Source: Gimesia maris (GTDB taxonomy: Bacteria; Planctomycetota; Planctomycetia; Planctomycetales; Planctomycetaceae). From it: a stretch of DNA of 64,000 bases. The position numbers and the translations under genes are program-made. Location of the stretch: positions 1 to 64,000 of the forward strand of contig NZ_CP042910.1 in assembly GCF_008298035.1 (NCBI RefSeq), read 5' to 3'. The notes below the pieces were generated by a model. That model was not told where the DNA came from, did no database searches, and saw only the letters and a program-made list of their open reading frames with translations. This document shows, piece after piece, positions 19,808 to 28,043 of the stretch. Within the stretch, counting starts at the first letter, position 1. Each line of letters opens with the position of its first letter.

Positions 19808-20519
19808 CTGTTGGAAGTAGAAAGAGCAGCTGTCATCCGAGCACTGCTCAATCGCCGTGTCTGCAAACATTGAACTTGACCGCGTCGCGCCAACGACGAT
19901 AAGCGTAGACCTGTGTCGCGCGCGTGCCCAGTTTACAGTGCACTGAAACACCGCGAACCACTTCCCGAGGTTCACGCGAAAACCGGACGTTTTTTCCAGA
20001 TCTGCACTGCCTGAAACAGCACCAGTTCGTGATGTATGCCTGCGGGTCGCCGCACATCGCACAGCATCGTCCCGGCACCGCCCCAGTACCGCCTCATATC
20101 GCGACCCTGTCAACCTGTATCGCCACCCCGTTTTCTTCTGACCCCTCTTGACACCGCCGCGCCGTTCGCGAAGATCAGACGCACTCGAGATGACAGAGAA
20201 CAACCCAACTACGAGCAACCAGAGTCCACAGAAAACATTTTCCAACATGTAACACATGACCGACTCTCCCCTCAAACCAGGTATTCCTGTCAGCGGCCCG
20301 CACAGCAACAGAAAACGCGCACAGACATAGAGAGAATCTTAAGGAATGCCACCAGACTGCCCAGCTGAAAATCAGCGACCAGTGATCAGCAAACAGCGAG
20401 AAAAAGAAATCAGAATGAGCATCACCAGATCAGCACGACGAGTGTCATAATCACCTCCCCGTGTGCCACTGTCGGCTTGCCCGACAGTGAAGAAAAACCA
20501 TCTAACTCAAGAAAGAAAA
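19808..20519. other. Non-coding gap with a hairpin and a strong orphan ribosome site
   Basis: No normal gene is seen in these 712 bases between the porin and the first repeat array. Two features stand out. A 9-bp perfect hairpin (CACTGTCGG at 20467-20475 with CCGACAGTG at 20481-20489) has a 5-base loop. On the minus strand, a perfect Shine-Dalgarno sequence GGAGGTGA (complement of 20451-20458) stands just before an ATG at 20448. That ATG opens only an 8-codon frame (MTLVVLIW). Its stop overlaps a second ATG giving a 16-codon hydrophobic frame (MLILISFSRCLLITGR). This looks like a leader- or toxin-like small-peptide site, but no coding evidence beyond the ribosome site exists. Confidence 0.4.
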
Positions 20520-21210
20520 GGGTGGGCCCGAATGTAATTCGGGTCGAGCGAAGCGAGCAGGAGGTCGCAGTTCACTCAACCAAGCCAGATTCGATTTCCT
20601 ACCACGTAGAGATCAATTCACGAGTATCAATCAGAAACTCAGCTTCAACACAGACGCAGCAGGTTTCTATCGCAACCTCCTGTTGTCTGCGACAACCTCG
20701 GATTACATCCGAGGTCACCCGGTGTTCGTGTCTTTTGTTTACTACCAGGAAAAACAGGAAACCACACGAAAAAAGATTAATAGATAAGCCCGAATAAAAT
20801 TCGGGCCGAGCGAAGCGAGCAGGAGGTCGCAGTTCACTCAACCAAGCCAGATTCGATTTCCTACCACGTAGAGATCAATTCACGAGTATCAATCAGAAAC
20901 TCAACTTCAACACAAACGCAGCAGGTTTCTATCGCAACCTCCTGTTGTCTGCGACAACCTCGGATTACATCCGAGGCCACCCGATTATAGTCGGGGTTCA
21001 TACATTTTGATTTACTACCACGAAAAACACGAAACCACACGAAAAATGATTAATAGATAAGCCCGAATAAAATTCGGGCCGAGCGCAGCGAGCAGGAGGT
21101 TGCAGCTCACTCAACCAAACCAGATTCGATTTCCGATCATGCAGAAATCCATTTAGGAGTTTCAATCAGAAACTCAAGTTCAGCACAGACGAAGCAAATC
21201 TCTGCATGTT
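20520..21210. repeat. Repeat array 1 (copies A, B and partial C of the ~273-bp element)
   Basis: Copy A begins at 20520 and has its left hairpin at 20527-20543 and its right hairpin at 20696-20714. Copy B begins near 20788 with its right hairpin at 20958-20976. Copy C begins at 21061 and is truncated near 21210, losing the CCTCCTG segment and right hairpin. Start-to-start distances are 262 and 273 bases. Copies end in a spacer with CACGAAAAACACGAAACC-type sequence, the same as in arrays 2 and 3. Copy C ends 45-100 bases before the sigma-factor gene, so it may affect that promoter. Copies B and C start with TAAGCCCG, whereas A starts with GGGTGGGCCCG. Confidence 0.9.
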
Positions 21211-21307
21211 TCTGTAAAAAAATACTGGCCTGACTGTCACAGTCTGTATCAGAATGTGTCAAAGGGAGAGAATACCCAAAGGTTCATTCCAATCAGTGAG
21301 AGACGAA

Positions 21308-22207
21308 ATGCCGAAACCCCTGATGTACAATCCCTTTACCGAAATCGCTGACGATGACCAGCAGGATGTCGAACTGGTTGATCAGGCCCAAAATGGTGAT
21401 CGCAGTGCACTCGAAAAGCTGGTTCTGCGACATCAGGCCTGGATTTATAACATCGCGATCCGGATGGTGTTTCACCCGCACGATGCGGAAGAAGTCACGC
21501 AGGAAGTCCTTCTCAAAGCCATCACACGACTGAGTACTTTTCAGGGGACCAGTCAGTTTCGCACCTGGCTTTATCGCATCACCGTCAATCACGTTCTGAA
21601 TATGAAACGACGGGGGGGAGAATCTCAGCCGCAAACATTTTCCAGTTATGCTGCTGCGATTAACGACATTCCCGATCTGGATCTGCCAGACCCCAGAACT
21701 GTTCCCGTGGATGTGCCACTGCTCGTCGAAGAAGCGAAAGTCGCGTGTACAACCGGCATGCTGCTCTGTCTGGATCGCAGGCAACGACTGATTTTCACTC
21801 TGGGTGAAATCTTCGGGGCCAGTGATAAAGTGGGGAGTGAAATCATGGAGATGTCGGCAGACAATTTTCGGCAGTGCCTGTCACGGGCCCGTAACGATTT
21901 ATATCAGTTCATGCAGAACCAGTGTGGTCTGGTCAATGAGAGGAATCCCTGCCGCTGCCCGAAGAAAACCAGGGGTTTCATCAGAGAGGGGCACGTCGAC
22001 CCCGAGCATTTACTGTTCGTGCCGCAACACGTTCAACGCATCAGTGAAGTTGCCTCCGACACCATTCGCAAAATGGACGACGCCACGGAGCAGCAATACG
22101 CGGCCCTGTTTCGCACTCATCCCTTTCTGGAACCTTCCAGTCAAATCGACTGGCTGCAACAGCTGCTGGAGCAACCGGGCATTCGCGCTGCGTTACGTTT
22201 GAACTGA
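21308..22207 (+). CDS. ECF-type RNA polymerase sigma factor with C-terminal CxC extension
   Basis: The product (299 residues from the ATG at 21308; 317 from an in-frame ATG at 21254) has sigma region 2 (ALEKLVLRHQAWIYNIAIRM, then DAEEVTQEVLLKAITRL and FRTWLYRITVNHVLNMKRR). Region 4 follows (RRQRLIFTLGEIFG to NFRQCLSRARNDLYQFM). After region 4 comes about 95 residues starting with NPCRCPKKTRGF, an extension seen in some ECF groups. The cysteine pair could bind metal or sense redox state, which is inference. No anti-sigma gene lies beside it. GAGAG lies just upstream of 21308. The copy of the dispersed repeat directly upstream makes the promoter region unusual. Confidence 0.85.
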   Translation: MPKPLMYNPFTEIADDDQQDVELVDQAQNGDRSALEKLVLRHQAWIYNIAIRMVFHPHDAEEVTQEVLLKAITRLSTFQGTSQFRTWLYRITVNHVLNMKRRGGESQPQTFSSYAAAINDIPDLDLPDPRTVPVDVPLLVEEAKVACTTGMLLCLDRRQRLIFTLGEIFGASDKVGSEIMEMSADNFRQCLSRARNDLYQFMQNQCGLVNERNPCRCPKKTRGFIREGHVDPEHLLFVPQHVQRISEVASDTIRKMDDATEQQYAALFRTHPFLEPSSQIDWLQQLLEQPGIRAALRLN

Positions 22208-22300
22208 AAAAAGAACGGCGACTGTCACACCGGTCTCCTCAATGTGTCTAAGAATTAGTGCAGGGCTCAATCACTTTCAATAACACGAGGAGGAGATACG

Positions 22301-23056
22301 ATGTCAAAGCTAGACAAAAAAGTGGCACTTGTAACGGGGGCCTCCAAGGGAATCGGTGCGGGGATCGCCAGGGAACTGGCTGCGGCGGGAGCAGCTGTGG
22401 TTGTGAATTTTGCGATCGATGGGGAGCGTGCCGAAGCCCTGGTAGAACAAATCAAACTAGAGAACGGGCAAGCTGTTGCGGTGCAGGCAGATGTTTCGCA
22501 TGCAGCAGATGTGTCACGTTTATTCCAGGATGTTGCTTCAACCTTTGGCCGACTCGACATCCTGGTAAACAATGCCGGCGTGTATCGCGAGACTCCAATA
22601 GAGGAACTGACTGAAGAAGAGTTTCACCGTCAATTCAATATCAACGTGCTTGGTCCTCTGTTAGTCATCCGGGAGTCGCTGCAGTACTTTGGTTCTGAAG
22701 GGGGTACCATCATTAACATTGGCTCCGGCGCTTCAAAGATGTGTCCACCCGGTTATTCGATCTATTCAGCCAGCAAAAGCGCGCTCGACGCGATTACCGG
22801 AGTGCTCTCGAAGGAACTGGCTTCCCGCAACATCCGCGTCAATTCAGTCAATCCAGGCGCGACGTTAAGCGAGGGAACGCAGGCAGCGGGCCTGTATGGC
22901 GTAGAGAATGATTTCGAGAAACAACTGGTCGCGATGACGCCTTTAAACCGCATCGGCACACCAGCAGACATTGCCCGCGTGGTCGCTTTTCTCGCCTCTG
23001 ACGATTCCGCCTGGCTGACCGGCGAGATCATCCAGGCATCCGGGGGACTGCGCTGA
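22301..23056 (+). CDS. SDR family oxidoreductase
   Basis: This is a classical short-chain dehydrogenase/reductase of 251 residues using NAD(P)H. It has the cofactor motif TGASKGIG at about 13-20, NNAG near 90 and catalytic YSASK (Ser-Tyr-Lys arrangement) near 151-155. A C-terminal [12 protein letters not shown] ending follows the 3-oxoacyl-ACP reductase type. AGGAGGAGA lies before the ATG at 22301, one of the strongest ribosome sites in the window. It follows the sigma gene at 93 bases and precedes the TIGR03067 gene at 79 bases. The substrate is unknown. Confidence 0.93.
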
Positions 23057-23135
23057 GACTAATCGGAAGAATTGAATAATAGCGAAAGCGCGTCACATAA
23101 TTTTCATCATCTTCAATAGCGGGAGGAACATTCCA

Positions 23136-23618
23136 ATGAATATGAATTTTGCATCTAACATTTTATTGCTTTTCGTTTCAATCATGCAGGTGCAGGAACT
23201 GTCGGCAGCCGCGCCCCCCAAACAGGAAGTCAGTCAGGCGCTGCAGCAATTCGCCGGGACCTGGAAGATCGTTTCCAGTGAACCCGCAGGAGCGACAAAA
23301 GAGGCAACGCAACTGGTATTTCACAAAGATCTGACTTACGCGGCACTGGATCAGCAGGGAAAGGAACTCTGGTCGGGAACCTTCGATCTCGATCCGACAG
23401 CTATGCCAAAAAGATGGGACCACCGCTCCCAGGCCGCTCAGAAGGAAGGGGGCGATGTCCTGGGGATCTATGAACTGGACGGCGACCGACTCAAGGTTTC
23501 CTGTGTCGTGGGTGCCTGGAAAGAGAAAAAGTGGACCGGCAAACCACGTCCAAATGTATTCAAATTACCCGAAGCGGATGTGGTGTTGAACCTGCAGCGC
23601 AAAGCTGCGTCTCCCTGA
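23136..23618 (+). CDS. TIGR03067-type secreted protein
   Basis: The 160-residue product has a signal peptide ([17 protein letters not shown], cleavage near 25) and a lipocalin-like planctomycete domain. It begins [15 protein letters not shown] and includes the [19 protein letters not shown] strand pair and the [10 protein letters not shown] segment characteristic of TIGR03067. The function is unknown; the family is expanded in planctomycetes. GGGAGGAA lies before the ATG. Its stop is followed within 11 bases by the left terminal motif of repeat array 2. Confidence 0.85.
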
Positions 23619-23628
23619 AATTCTTTTA

Positions 23629-24183
23629 CTACCACGAAAACACACGAAACCACACGAAAGTGAAAAAGAAAGGGTAAGCCCGGATGCAAATCCGGGCCGA
23701 GCGCAGCGAGCAGGAGGTTGCAGCTCACTCAATCAAACCAGATTCGATTTCCTACCACGTATAGATCAATTTACGAGTATCGATCAGAAACTCAAGTTTA
23801 GCACAGACGAGGCAGGTTTCTATCACAACCTCCTGTTGTCTGTGACAACCTCGGATTGCATCCGAGGCCACCCGGTGTTCGTGTCTTTTGTTTACTACCA
23901 CGAAAAACACGAAAAAAGGATCATGGGTGGGCCCGAATAAAATTCGGGCCGAGCGCAGCGAGCAGGAGGTCGCAGCTCACGCAATCAAACCAAAACCAAC
24001 TTCCCACCAGATAGAAGCAATTCACGACTCTCAATCAGAAACTCAGCTTCAACACAGACGCAGCAGGTCACACTCACAACCTCCTGTTGTCTGCGACAAT
24101 CCCGAATTACATTCGGGACCACCCGATGTTGTTACCTCTCACCAACCAGATGCTTTCGTGTCATTTCGTGTTTTTCGTGGTAG
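23629..24183. repeat. Repeat array 2 (copies D and E) bounded by inverted terminal motifs
   Basis: The array lies between the convergent TIGR03067 and hydrolase genes. Copy D has its left hairpin at 23678-23697 and right hairpin at 23849-23867; copy E has them at 23931-23949 and 24100-24118. The left end (23629-23659, starting CTACCACGAAAA) and the right end (24154-24183, ending TTTTTCGTGGTAG) are inverted copies of about 30 bases with only a few differences. This gives the array clear terminal inverted repeats. Copy E has compensatory changes in its right hairpin. Confidence 0.9.
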
Positions 24184-24210
24184 AAAAAATCACGATCAGA
24201 CAACCCACCT

Positions 24211-25113
24211 CTACTTCAACTGCCCGTCGATCCAGTCGGCCATTTGTTCGACCTCTTCGTGGATCGTCGGCCAGGGGTGGCCGCCCCCTTCTTTGATGAT
24301 GAACTTTACCGGCACCTCCGCTTTCTGCAAAGCGGCGACCATCACCCGCGACTGTTGGATCGGCACCATGAAATCGGCTGTGCCATGGATGATCAGAAAC
24401 GGAGGCAGGCCCGGCTTCACCAGGCGGGCCGGGGAGAACGCGGTCCGCAGTTCGTCCAGGCGGCTGACGTCGATCGTTTCTGAACCCTTGGGCGTGATCA
24501 GTCGGCGGATGGATTGCGCCAGTTGATCTTCGCCGCTGATGTCAATTTTGAAGCCGCCGTAGTTCATCAGATCGGTGGGGGGAAAAAAGACGGCCACCGC
24601 TTTCACCCGCGTTTTGGACTTCGCATCCGCCGCCGATACCGCCGCCATACAGGCCAGGTGACCGCCGGCCGAAGCGCCCAGCATTGCCAGTCGATTCGGA
24701 TCGACCTGGTATACCCTGGCATGTTCTTTGACCCACAAAATACCTCGATTCACATTGTCCAGCATCTCGGGTCCGTTGAATTTCGCGATTGAACCGGGAC
24801 GGATGGCGAATACGGTATAGCCGCGACTGCAGAAAATGTCGAACATTTGTGCCTGCTTGTGATCGCGGAGCTTGCCGCGATCCGAGTGATACGCGCCCGA
24901 AACCACATCGACGATACCCAGCCCGTTCGGCTGGGAGCGGGGCGTGAACACATCCAGCAGCAGACCCACGCCATGCACTTCCGCATAGACCAGATTTTTC
25001 TGCTGATGATAAGGCAGTTCGGCGGGTTTTTCCGCTCTAACCGAAGAGACACAAAGGAGTAACGCACACAGAGAGACTGCCGATACGCAGCGGAATCGCG
25101 AAAGACTCAACAT
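24211..25113 (-). CDS. Secreted alpha/beta hydrolase (carboxylesterase-like)
   Basis: The 300-residue product starts with a signal peptide (MLSLSRFRCVSAVSLCALLL, AxA-type end VRAE near 25-28). The fold is a prolyl-oligopeptidase/acetyl-esterase-type hydrolase with nucleophile Ser148 in LGASAGG, Asp247 in HGTADFMVP and His279 in GGGHPW. It probably cleaves an ester in the periplasm or outside the cell; BD-FAE-like or xylan esterase roles are possible but unproven. An in-frame upstream ATG exists, but the start at 25113 is preferred because the signal peptide begins there. It ends about 27 bases from repeat array 2 and is divergent from the DUF1501 gene. Confidence 0.85.
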   Translation of the reverse strand: MLSLSRFRCVSAVSLCALLLCVSSVRAEKPAELPYHQQKNLVYAEVHGVGLLLDVFTPRSQPNGLGIVDVVSGAYHSDRGKLRDHKQAQMFDIFCSRGYTVFAIRPGSIAKFNGPEMLDNVNRGILWVKEHARVYQVDPNRLAMLGASAGGHLACMAAVSAADAKSKTRVKAVAVFFPPTDLMNYGGFKIDISGEDQLAQSIRRLITPKGSETIDVSRLDELRTAFSPARLVKPGLPPFLIIHGTADFMVPIQQSRVMVAALQKAEVPVKFIIKEGGGHPWPTIHEEVEQMADWIDGQLK

Positions 25114-25350
25114 CAATTCAAACCTGACATACAAAGAAAAAGTCGAAGAACGAACACCAATACGAAATCCGTTAAATAAAACCACCGGCTGACCCGTATC
25201 ATATCAAAGGGATTACAGCGACTGAAACAAAATCTGCCCGCGATCGGCGGGAACAGACTACGCTTCATGATTCTTACCGGAAAAGACTCGCATTTGTTTC
25301 AAAAAATCCCCTAAAATAAGAAAAGAGCGCTATATATTAAGGACACAAAG

Positions 25351-26715
25351 ATGAGAGGCAGATTAGACAGACAGAGCCCCCGGATTTCCCGCCGCGATTA
25401 TCTGCGCCTCTCCGCCCTGGGTGTGCTGGGCACAGGCATGTCGGGCTGGCTCCGACGTCTGGCCGCTGAAACCGCCGACAACCCGCAGCGCAAACGCAGT
25501 TGCATCCTGTTGTGGATGTCGGGTGGCCCCAGTCAGACCGATACCTTCGATCTCAAACCGCAGCACGAAAATGGTGGCCCGTTCAAAGCGATCGACACCG
25601 ATGTGCCCGGCGTGCAGATCTCCGAACATCTGCCTCAACTCGCGAAGGTCATGAAGCATCTGGCTCCCATTCGCTCGATGAGCACCAAAGAAGGGGACCA
25701 CACCCGCGCCACGTATCTGCTCCGCACCGGCTATCTCCCGTCCGGCCCCCTCAGCTATCCGACGCTCGGCTCACTGCTGAGTAAGGAACTGGGAAGCACA
25801 CACGCCGACCTGCCCAACTTCGTCAGCATCGCCCCCAATAAAACATTAAGCCCCAATGCCTACGGCCCCGGCTTTCTGGGGCCGCAGTTCGCTCCCCTGA
25901 TCGTTGGCGAAGGCACAGGGATCGTGCCGAACGATGCCGCGAATGTCGACGCCGCGTTAAAAGTCAAAAACCTGACTTTGCCCACTGGCATTACGCGCCA
26001 GCAGGCCGACGAACGATTATCCATTCTGAAAGACCTGGAAACCGAATTCTCCGCCACGCATCCCGGCACACCGACCAGCAGTCATCGCAGTGCCTACACC
26101 GCCGCCGTTCGCATGATGCGTTCTAAAGCCATCGAAGCTTTTCAACTGGATCAGGAACCGGCTGCGCTCCGCGATGCCTACGGCCGCAATCGCTTCGGGC
26201 AGGGTTGTCTGCTGGCCCGCCGGTTGATTGAACAGGGAGTCCCTTTTGTCGAAGTCTCGTTGAACGGCGTGCAAGGCAACAACGCGTTCGGCTGGGATAC
26301 GCATCAGGAAAACTTCGAAGCCGTCAAAAGTCTGAGTGAAGTCCTCGACCCCGCCTGGGGGACTTTAATGACCGATCTCGAACAGCGGGGGTTATTGGAT
26401 TCCACGTTGATTGTCTGGATGGGGGAATTCGGCCGCACACCGAAGATCAATCAGAACACGGGCCGCGATCATTTTCCCGCAGCATGGACCACGGTGCTCG
26501 GCGGTGGTGGCATTCGCGGCGGACAGGTCATCGGCAAAACCAGCGAGGACGGCATGAAAGTCACCGACCAGCCGGTCGTCGTTCCCGATCTGATGGCAAC
26601 CATCTGCGCCGCGCTCGGCCTCGATCCCCAGCAGCAGAACATGTCCAACATCGGCCGCCCCATTCCCCTCGCTGACCACGGCGCCAAACCGATCCCGCAG
26701 ATTCTGAAAAGCTGA
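25351..26715 (+). CDS. DUF1501 domain protein, Tat-exported
   Basis: The 454-residue product starts with a twin-arginine signal (SRRDYLRLSALGVLGTGM, about 11-28) and the DUF1501 body. The body opens LLWMSGGPSQTDTFDLKP, has the middle segment FVEVSLNGVQGNNAFGWDTH, and then WMGEFGRTPKINQNTGRDHF. The fold relates to alkaline phosphatase/sulfatase-like enzymes, but the catalytic role is unknown. DUF1501 genes in planctomycetes often sit beside DUF1553/DUF1549 cytochrome-type partners; none is next to this one. AAGGA precedes the ATG. Repeat array 3 begins right after the stop, which lies inside the palindrome TGAGTGAAGTTCACTCA (26713-26729). Confidence 0.9.
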   Translation: MRGRLDRQSPRISRRDYLRLSALGVLGTGMSGWLRRLAAETADNPQRKRSCILLWMSGGPSQTDTFDLKPQHENGGPFKAIDTDVPGVQISEHLPQLAKVMKHLAPIRSMSTKEGDHTRATYLLRTGYLPSGPLSYPTLGSLLSKELGSTHADLPNFVSIAPNKTLSPNAYGPGFLGPQFAPLIVGEGTGIVPNDAANVDAALKVKNLTLPTGITRQQADERLSILKDLETEFSATHPGTPTSSHRSAYTAAVRMMRSKAIEAFQLDQEPAALRDAYGRNRFGQGCLLARRLIEQGVPFVEVSLNGVQGNNAFGWDTHQENFEAVKSLSEVLDPAWGTLMTDLEQRGLLDSTLIVWMGEFGRTPKINQNTGRDHFPAAWTTVLGGGGIRGGQVIGKTSEDGMKVTDQPVVVPDLMATICAALGLDPQQQNMSNIGRPIPLADHGAKPIPQILKS

Positions 26716-26730
26716 GTGAAGTTCACTCAA

Positions 26731-28021
26731 CAGGCAGGGTAAGCCCGGATGCACATCCGGGCCGAGCGCAGCGAGCAAGAGGTCACAGCTCACTCAATCA
26801 AACCAGATTCGATTCCCTATCATGTAGAGACCCATTTTCGAGTATCAACCAGAAACTCCACTTCAACTCAAACGCAGCAGGTTTCTATCGCAACCTCCTG
26901 TTGTCTGCGACAACCTCGGATTGCATCCGAGGCCACCCGATTTTAGTCGGGGTTCATACTTTTTGATTTACTACCACGAAAAACACGAAACCACACAAAA
27001 AAAAGAATAGTGGGTGGGCCCGAATAAAATTCGGGCCGAGCGCAGCGAGCAGGAGGTCGCAGCTGACTCAATCAAACCAGATTCGATTCCCTGTCATGTA
27101 GAGACTCATTTTCGAGTATCGATCAGAAACTCAAGTTCAACACAGACGCAGCAGGTTTCTCTCACAACCTCCTGTTGTCTGCGACAACCTCGGATTGCAT
27201 CCGAGGCCACCCGATTTTAGTCGGGTTCATACTTTTTGATTTACTACCACGAAAAACACGAAACCACACAAAAAAAAGAATAGTGGGTGGGCCCGAATAA
27301 AATTCGGGCCGAGCGCAGCGAGCAGGAGGTCGCAGCTGACTCAATCAAACCAGATTCGATTCCCTATCATGTAGAGATCCATTTACGAGTATCGATCAGA
27401 AACTCAAGTTCAACACAGACGAAGCAGGTTTCTCTCACAACCTCCTGTTGTCTGTGACAACCTCGGATTACATCCGAGGCCACCCGATTTTAGTCGGGTT
27501 CATAAATTTTGATTTACTACCACGAAAAACACGAAACCACACGAAAAAAAGAATAGTGGGTGGGCCCGAATAAAATCCGGGCCGAGCGCAGCGAGCAGGA
27601 GGTCGCAGTTGACTCAATCAAACCAGATTCGGTTTCCTGTCATGTAGAGATCAATTCACGAGTCTCTATCAGAAATTCATCCTCAACCCAGACGAAGCAG
27701 TTTCTCTCACAACCTCCTGTTGTCTGCGACAACCTCGGATTATATCCGAGGCCACCCGATTTTAGTCGGGGTTCATACTTTTTGATTTACTACCACGAAA
27801 AACACGAAACCACACGAAAAAAAGAATAATGGGTGGGCCCGAATAAAATTCGGGCCGAGCGCAGCGAGCAGGAAACTGTCAGAGTAAGCGATCATTTCAG
27901 GAATAGCAGAACCCAAGAGGAACCTGACTCGAAATCACACCCTTCATGCGATTATTTTCACTCAGGTTCTGACCTCTCACTAACCAGATGCTTTCGTGTC
28001 ATTTCGTGCTTTTTGTGGTAG
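26731..28021. repeat. Repeat array 3 (copies F-J of the ~273-bp element, plus right terminal segment)
   Basis: The left hairpins of copies F-J start at 26743, 27018, 27291, 27564 and 27837, so the spacing is 275, 273, 273 and 273 bases. Right hairpins lie at 26914-26932, 27188-27206, 27461-27479 and 27733-27751. Copy J is cut near 27873 and continues into unrelated sequence. The array ends with the same terminal segment as array 2 (about 27970-28021, ending TTTTTGTGGTAG). In copy G, AGGAGGT at 27051-27057 faces ACCTCCT at 27167-27173. The array lies between the convergent DUF1501 gene and the symporter operon. The near-exact 273-base period suggests growth by tandem duplication. Confidence 0.93.
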
Positions 28022-28043
28022 AAAAAACGAAACCAGTTCCGAT

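Follow-up and report, generated by a model that had tools for sequence, protein, structure and literature searches.

The window, a stretch of 64,000 nucleotides of Gimesia maris DNA, contains ten copies of a repeated element in three arrays, all of which are intergenic and two of which lie between convergent genes. Array 1 (20520-21250) is flanked by an alginate-export gene (+) and a sigma-70 gene (+), array 2 (23672-24124) by a 160-aa ORF (+) and an alpha/beta hydrolase gene (-), and array 3 (26737-27880) by a DUF1501 gene (+) on one side and a small ORF and a sodium:solute symporter gene (-) on the other. A multicopy repeat in three arrays had been described in an earlier note on this DNA. 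The repeat proved to be real: direct repeats of 273 nt were present at these places (start-to-start spacings of 262, 273, 274, 273, and 273 nt), and a core shared by the copies was detected with an arm profile. Using this profile, 18 arms were found in the window at an E value of 1e-11 or better. Ten were left arms (+) and eight were right arms (-), which means that there are eight complete units of ~200 nt and two partial ones, rather than the seven full and three partial or altered copies counted earlier. Adjoining copies in array 3 are 97% alike. In the list below, the complete units are entered as REPINs, an assignment that is considered probable for the reasons given further on.

20462..20489 (no strand assigned): probable REP of a second family, TGTGCCACTGTCGGC-TTGC-CCGACAGTG, beside array 1, like the flanks of loci L012 and L013
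20520..20720 (+): REPIN copy 1; alpha (left) arm 20520-20569 (+), beta (right) arm 20671-20720 (-)
20782..20982 (+): REPIN copy 2; arms 20782-20831 (+; tag decayed to AGATAA) and 20933-20982 (-)
21055..21250 (+): copy 3, partial; keeps its alpha arm (21055-21104) but has lost the beta arm; immediately upstream of the sigma-70 gene
23672..23873 (+): REPIN copy 4; arms 23672-23722 (+) and 23824-23873 (-)
23925..24124 (+): REPIN copy 5; arms 23925-23974 (+) and 24075-24124 (-)
24154..24187 (-): inverted spacer copy closing array 2
26737..26938 (+): REPIN copy 6; arms 26737-26787 (+) and 26889-26938 (-)
27012..27212 (+): REPIN copy 7; arms 27012-27061 (+) and 27163-27212 (-)
27246..27263 (+): spacer repeat ACCACGAAAAACACGAAA, 5′ of the REP tag; also at 21017, 23897, 26973, 27519, and 27792, all on +
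27285..27485 (+): REPIN copy 8; arms 27285-27334 (+) and 27436-27485 (-)
27558..27757 (+): REPIN copy 9; arms 27558-27607 (+) and 27708-27757 (-)
27831..27880 (+): copy 10, partial; alpha arm only
about 27990-28025: second inverted spacer copy, closing array 3

The interval between arrays 1 and 2 holds a three-gene block (sigma-70, short-chain dehydrogenase, and 160-aa ORF; 21254-23618). The block is found at the same place in genomes G000 and G011 and is absent there in other congeners, and an orthologous block is found at another location in G005, G008, and G012.

Analysis of the arms showed that a complete unit consists of an alpha and a beta REP, homologous sequences of ~50 nt that face each other head to head and carry a GT[G/A]G tag. 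The alpha REP reads GGGTGG-(hairpin 1)-CGAGCGCAGCGAGC-AGGAGGT, and the beta REP reads GGGTGG-(hairpin 1)-GTTGTCGCAGACAAC-AGGAGGT. Each REP is made up of hairpin 1 followed by a mini-hairpin, hairpin 2, whose loop reads G(N)NA and which carries an A[AGC]GA[AG] tail. As had been noted earlier, the two arms resemble each other in inverted orientation. The description of the whole unit as a long palindrome applies to its arms but not to the ~100-nt middle, which is itself no palindrome and which is conserved between copies yet variable, the variability having been noted before. Among 33 arms from this genome, the tag was GTGG in 19, GTAG in 2, GTGA in 4, GTAA in 3, and degraded in 5. Hairpin 1 showed strong covariation across these arms, and 70 cells of the own-genome hairpin set were changed on both sides compared to 23.6 in shuffles; compensatory changes that keep the palindrome were seen in both the own-genome and the distant REP sets. 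Hairpin 2 of the beta arm has a fully paired stem and a GCA loop, and in the alpha arm two positions of this stem would be G·A mismatches between standard pairs. Such mismatches may form stable sheared pairs in single-stranded DNA. When the full unit was folded, one of the checks proposed in the earlier note, it folded far better than dinucleotide shuffles (z = -4.3 as DNA and -5.3 as RNA). A reading of AGGAGGT as a ribosome-binding site was dropped as a general explanation because distant relatives mostly have AAGARG at that place.

The 273-bp period corresponds to the REP pair plus a CACGAAAAACACGAAACC spacer, which had been taken to be part of the unit. This spacer is real, but it is a separate repeat. 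In the genome, ACCACGAAAAACACGAAA occurs in 70 copies at up to one mismatch, and among the REP matches listed, 32 of them lie upstream of a same-strand REP at a distance of 8 to 59 nt (mostly 18 to 22 nt), compared to a single copy in the reverse relation. The CACGAAA spacer was considered as a part of the REPIN and rejected: 38 of the 70 copies have no REP directly 3′ of them among the matches listed, and the spacer is also carried by genomes without these REPs. Furthermore, a scan of 298 genomes from the class found the spacer repeat ACCACGAARRACACGAAR (window 21017-21034 and elsewhere) in 60, belonging to many families, and the reversed control gave 0. It often forms inverted pairs 60 to 250 nt apart and, here too, is present in genomes that lack these REPs. 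The spacer is thus a class-wide repeat in its own right, which may serve as an insertion target or may simply hitchhike, and its sequence was not found printed in the literature consulted. The place of the spacer within the 273-bp unit, and the inverted copy of it that closes arrays 2 and 3, suggest that the arrays arose by tandem duplication of a REPIN together with its flank.

The search of the whole genome and of related species that had been suggested earlier showed that the element is not confined to the window. A covariance model found at least 150 REPs in the 7.8-Mb chromosome, and among the matches listed these fall into 65 clusters and form 33 head-to-head pairs, mostly of 181 to 202 nt; at the cutoffs used, 84 arms among the 150 matches listed are outside any such pair. 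REPs occur in both orientations throughout the genome. All 16 congeners searched gave at least one match, and several gave more than 100. Of 30 REP loci, 22 are intergenic and 8 are inside ORFs that may themselves be spurious. Gene orientation counted around 30 copies, with spurious ORFs lying over the arrays, showed no clear bias. An Rfam search of the arrays, made to see whether the element is already catalogued, gave no match above threshold.

The genome contains five Y1 transposase genes, all of them elsewhere, which agrees with the earlier statement that the window lacks a transposase. One of them, RAYT-A (G000:C1:1683778-1684284, at 1.68 Mb), is embedded in an array of REPs of this family, which flank it to the left and to the right. 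The RAYT-A protein matches PF01797 (E 5e-13), and its sole match among solved structures is Escherichia coli TnpA-REP (PDB 4er8; E 1e-5). Neither the HVH motif nor the catalytic-tyrosine motif Y.H.NPV varies within the RAYT-A clade, and the ORF is intact with its catalytic motifs in this genome. The REP downstream of RAYT-A provides the last codons and the stop of its ORF (GGGTGGCCCCGGATGTAA, read GWPRM-stop; L011 1960-1980, G000:C1 about 1684270-1684290). Relatives of RAYT-A were found with an alignment query, a single-protein query of contigs having given none. Within the genus, just 4 of the 17 genomes had an intact close ortholog and a fifth had a broken one, yet several members without an intact close ortholog have more than 100 REPs, so propagation is not ongoing everywhere. 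In G009, the ortholog (G009:C1:1728494-1728980; L048) appears broken into two overlapping pieces in different frames with one stop, and more than 100 REPs persist in that genome.

The best explanation is that the 200-nt units are a REPIN family with a cognate RAYT, that is, a REPIN/RAYT or REPtron system, to which we assign a probability of roughly 0.85. Judging from the anatomy and the co-distribution of the two, RAYT-A probably spread the REP copies. As REPINs, the units would be nonautonomous, each consisting of two inverted REPs with a GT[G/A]G tag and depending for its propagation on a Y1 HUH transposase (RAYT/TnpA-REP) acting in trans. Each REP would fold into hairpin 1 and the G(N)NA-capped hairpin 2 when its strand is single, as on the lagging strand or in an extruded cruciform. 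RAYT-A would then recognize the folded REP and its GTGG foot and cut beside this foot through its HUH/tyrosine site, after which new sites would receive the REP pair by copying or joining. The arrays would lengthen in tandem through duplication of a REPIN and the adjoining flank, giving the 273-bp period. This model is drawn by analogy with other TnpA-REP proteins, for which binding and cleavage of folded, single-stranded REPs have been seen in vitro (PMC8266576).

The units might alternatively be a structured noncoding RNA or another RNA-level element (a terminator, an mRNA stabilizer, or an array of small RNAs) kept for regulation, the link to the RAYT being incidental. The strong RNA fold of the unit (z of -5.3), the two arrays between convergent genes, the position of another just 5′ of the sigma-70 gene, and the action of REPs on mRNA in other species (PMC6006769) are all in its favor. 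However, the occurrence of REPs in both orientations throughout the genome, the lack of an Rfam match above threshold, and the way in which tag and architecture track a clade of single-stranded-DNA transposases across families make this reading improbable, and an RNA role may instead be a secondary one beside the REPIN identity. Even less probable, to the point of being nearly negligible, is a MITE of a classical DDE transposon, in which GGGTGG...CCACCC would be terminal inverted repeats acted on by a DDE transposase in trans. The terminal inverted similarity and the ~200-nt size would suit such an element, but single unpaired arms are common (84 among the 150 matches listed), the arms flank a Y1 transposase, and the aligned sites, with their poor junctions, revealed no target duplication. 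The earlier likening of the units to REP/BIME or MITE elements can thus be kept in its first half, as a REPIN family that has a GT[AG]G tag and whose cognate RAYT lies at a distance of 1.66 Mb, and was unsupported in its second.

A further question is whether the REPINs are relics, spread by a RAYT in the past and now changed mainly by homologous recombination and slippage, so that the window arrays would be recombination products and not the outcome of current transposition. This is possible but rather unlikely. It is favored by the majority of congeners, which keep REPs without an intact close RAYT-A, by the 97% likeness of neighboring array 3 copies, and by the presence or absence of the three-gene block between arrays 1 and 2 among congeners; the intact RAYT-A ORF of this genome, with its catalytic motifs, argues against it. 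Comparison of orthologous sites showed varied states. For instance, the array 3 site holds a single REPIN in G014, and the two genes are 3 to 11 nt apart in G002 and G003. In G013 the gap is about 1.5 kb and has no REP, which means that an empty site need not be one that predates insertion. At other sites, pairs were reduced to single REPs or the reverse. When 11 loci were set against their orthologs in G011 and G014, the two nearest congeners, no clean occupied/empty junction, target duplication, or target rule was found, the intergenic DNA at these loci often being too diverged or the elements merely altered.

The REPs beside relatives of RAYT-A (45 to 79% identity; from this and other genera and families) share a plan with the REPIN arms and little stem sequence. 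This plan consists of the tag GT[GA]G, then hairpin 1, then a hairpin 2 whose loop is G(N)NA (GCC in one exception), and, in most, a short A[AGC]GA[AG]-type tail. A distant set of 16 REPs from outside the genus was 98.9% paired and scored 0.673, compared to 0.206 when shuffled and at most 0.09 when slid; its hairpin 2 was 100% paired, with three of five pairs changed on both sides. A strict rule-based finder placed two-hairpin REPs beside 13 of 19 RAYT-A-clade genes, the other 6 loci failing the strict rule and being judged by eye or by model, and beside none of 17 other planctomycete RAYTs, none of 75 others, and none in shuffles. The corresponding Fisher p values, about 1e-5 and 1e-12, are based on counts that include related and duplicate genomes and are not independent (the REPs of L051 and L075, for example, are identical, as are those of L056 and L077). 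The 16 distinct members group together on a single branch of the protein tree (support 100/98), joined there by one extra row, L083, an unlabeled locus outside the model. It comes from a short contig of a Desulfarculales MAG whose phylum rests on binning, and its flank holds a two-hairpin REP (model R2, E 3e-7). The clade members L055 and L090, also outside the model, had two-hairpin REP matches, and one-hairpin RAYT loci and Acidobacteria loci had no match to R2. Distant-type REPs were found in 10 of 10 genomes with a RAYT-A-clade gene, a count favored by construction since most of the ten contributed sequences to the model, compared to 8 of 27 without. The two-hairpin REP may well be a distinct structural type that defines a RAYT subclade of its own and is recognized by it, the subclade being represented in several planctomycete families and in at least one further phylum.

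RAYT-A and its REPs are not the only such system here. Two other Y1 genes (RAYT-B, L012 and L013) are flanked by a one-hairpin REP family, GGGTGGCACTGTTGGC-TTGC-CAACAGTG or a variant of it, so at least two REP/RAYT systems coexist in the genome. The REPs of L012 and L013 are of a GTGGCAC type.

REPs, REPINs, RAYTs, GTGG tags, and reiterated clusters are known, Planctomycetes included, and published accounts already describe GTRG REPs of Planctomycetes, RAYT-flanking REPs, head-to-head dimers, and dimers tandemly reiterated with flanking DNA (PMC3733652, PMC6006769). The earlier suggestion of an undescribed family thus holds for the exact family with its two-hairpin unit, of which no description was found in the literature consulted, but not for its kind, a GT[AG]G-tagged REPIN with a cognate RAYT. 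GTAG/GTRG REPtrons (E. coli REP/TnpA-REP and the planctomycete and verrucomicrobial GTAG families; PMC3733652) likewise have a GTRG tag at the hairpin foot, head-to-head dimers and clusters, many copies, and a RAYT flanked by the same REPs, and their copies are extragenic, as the window arrays here are; the present REPs differ in their second, separate G(N)NA-loop hairpin, their A[AGC]GA[AG] tail, and their mostly GTGG tag. Pseudomonas fluorescens REPINs, REP doublets that form hairpins, also have an inverted REP pair as the unit and a cognate RAYT, but here there are two distinct REP types and the unit is ~200 nt (PMC3116915). The alpha and beta types are distinct in the way that the Y and Z REPs of E. 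coli BIMEs are. The nearest precedent, described in PMC3733652, are the Pseudomonas REP and stem-loop units (the "double inverted repeats" of P. putida and P. fluorescens) and the double palindromic TIRs of TIRYTs, in which a REP adjoins a second stem-loop beside a Y1 transposase gene, with many copies in the genome; by description alone, the Pseudomonas units are set apart as degenerated GTAG-1 units joined to unrelated stem-loops. The structural types in PMC6006769 (short, long, long with bulge, and double foot) have one hairpin each, optionally bulged or double-footed, and the two consecutive hairpins of RAYT-A-clade REPs fit none of them. Judged from sequence, what is new here is the predicted second, covarying mini-hairpin in each REP, common to one whole RAYT branch. 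The clade finding would mean that REPIN systems shape planctomycete genomes. The way in which a RAYT tells its own REPs from others has been studied in only a few proteobacterial systems, where recognition relies on a bulge in the stem or on a base of the loop (PMC8266576); an extra covarying mini-hairpin that travels with its enzyme would offer a natural series of about 16 distinct enzyme/REP pairs for recognition tests.
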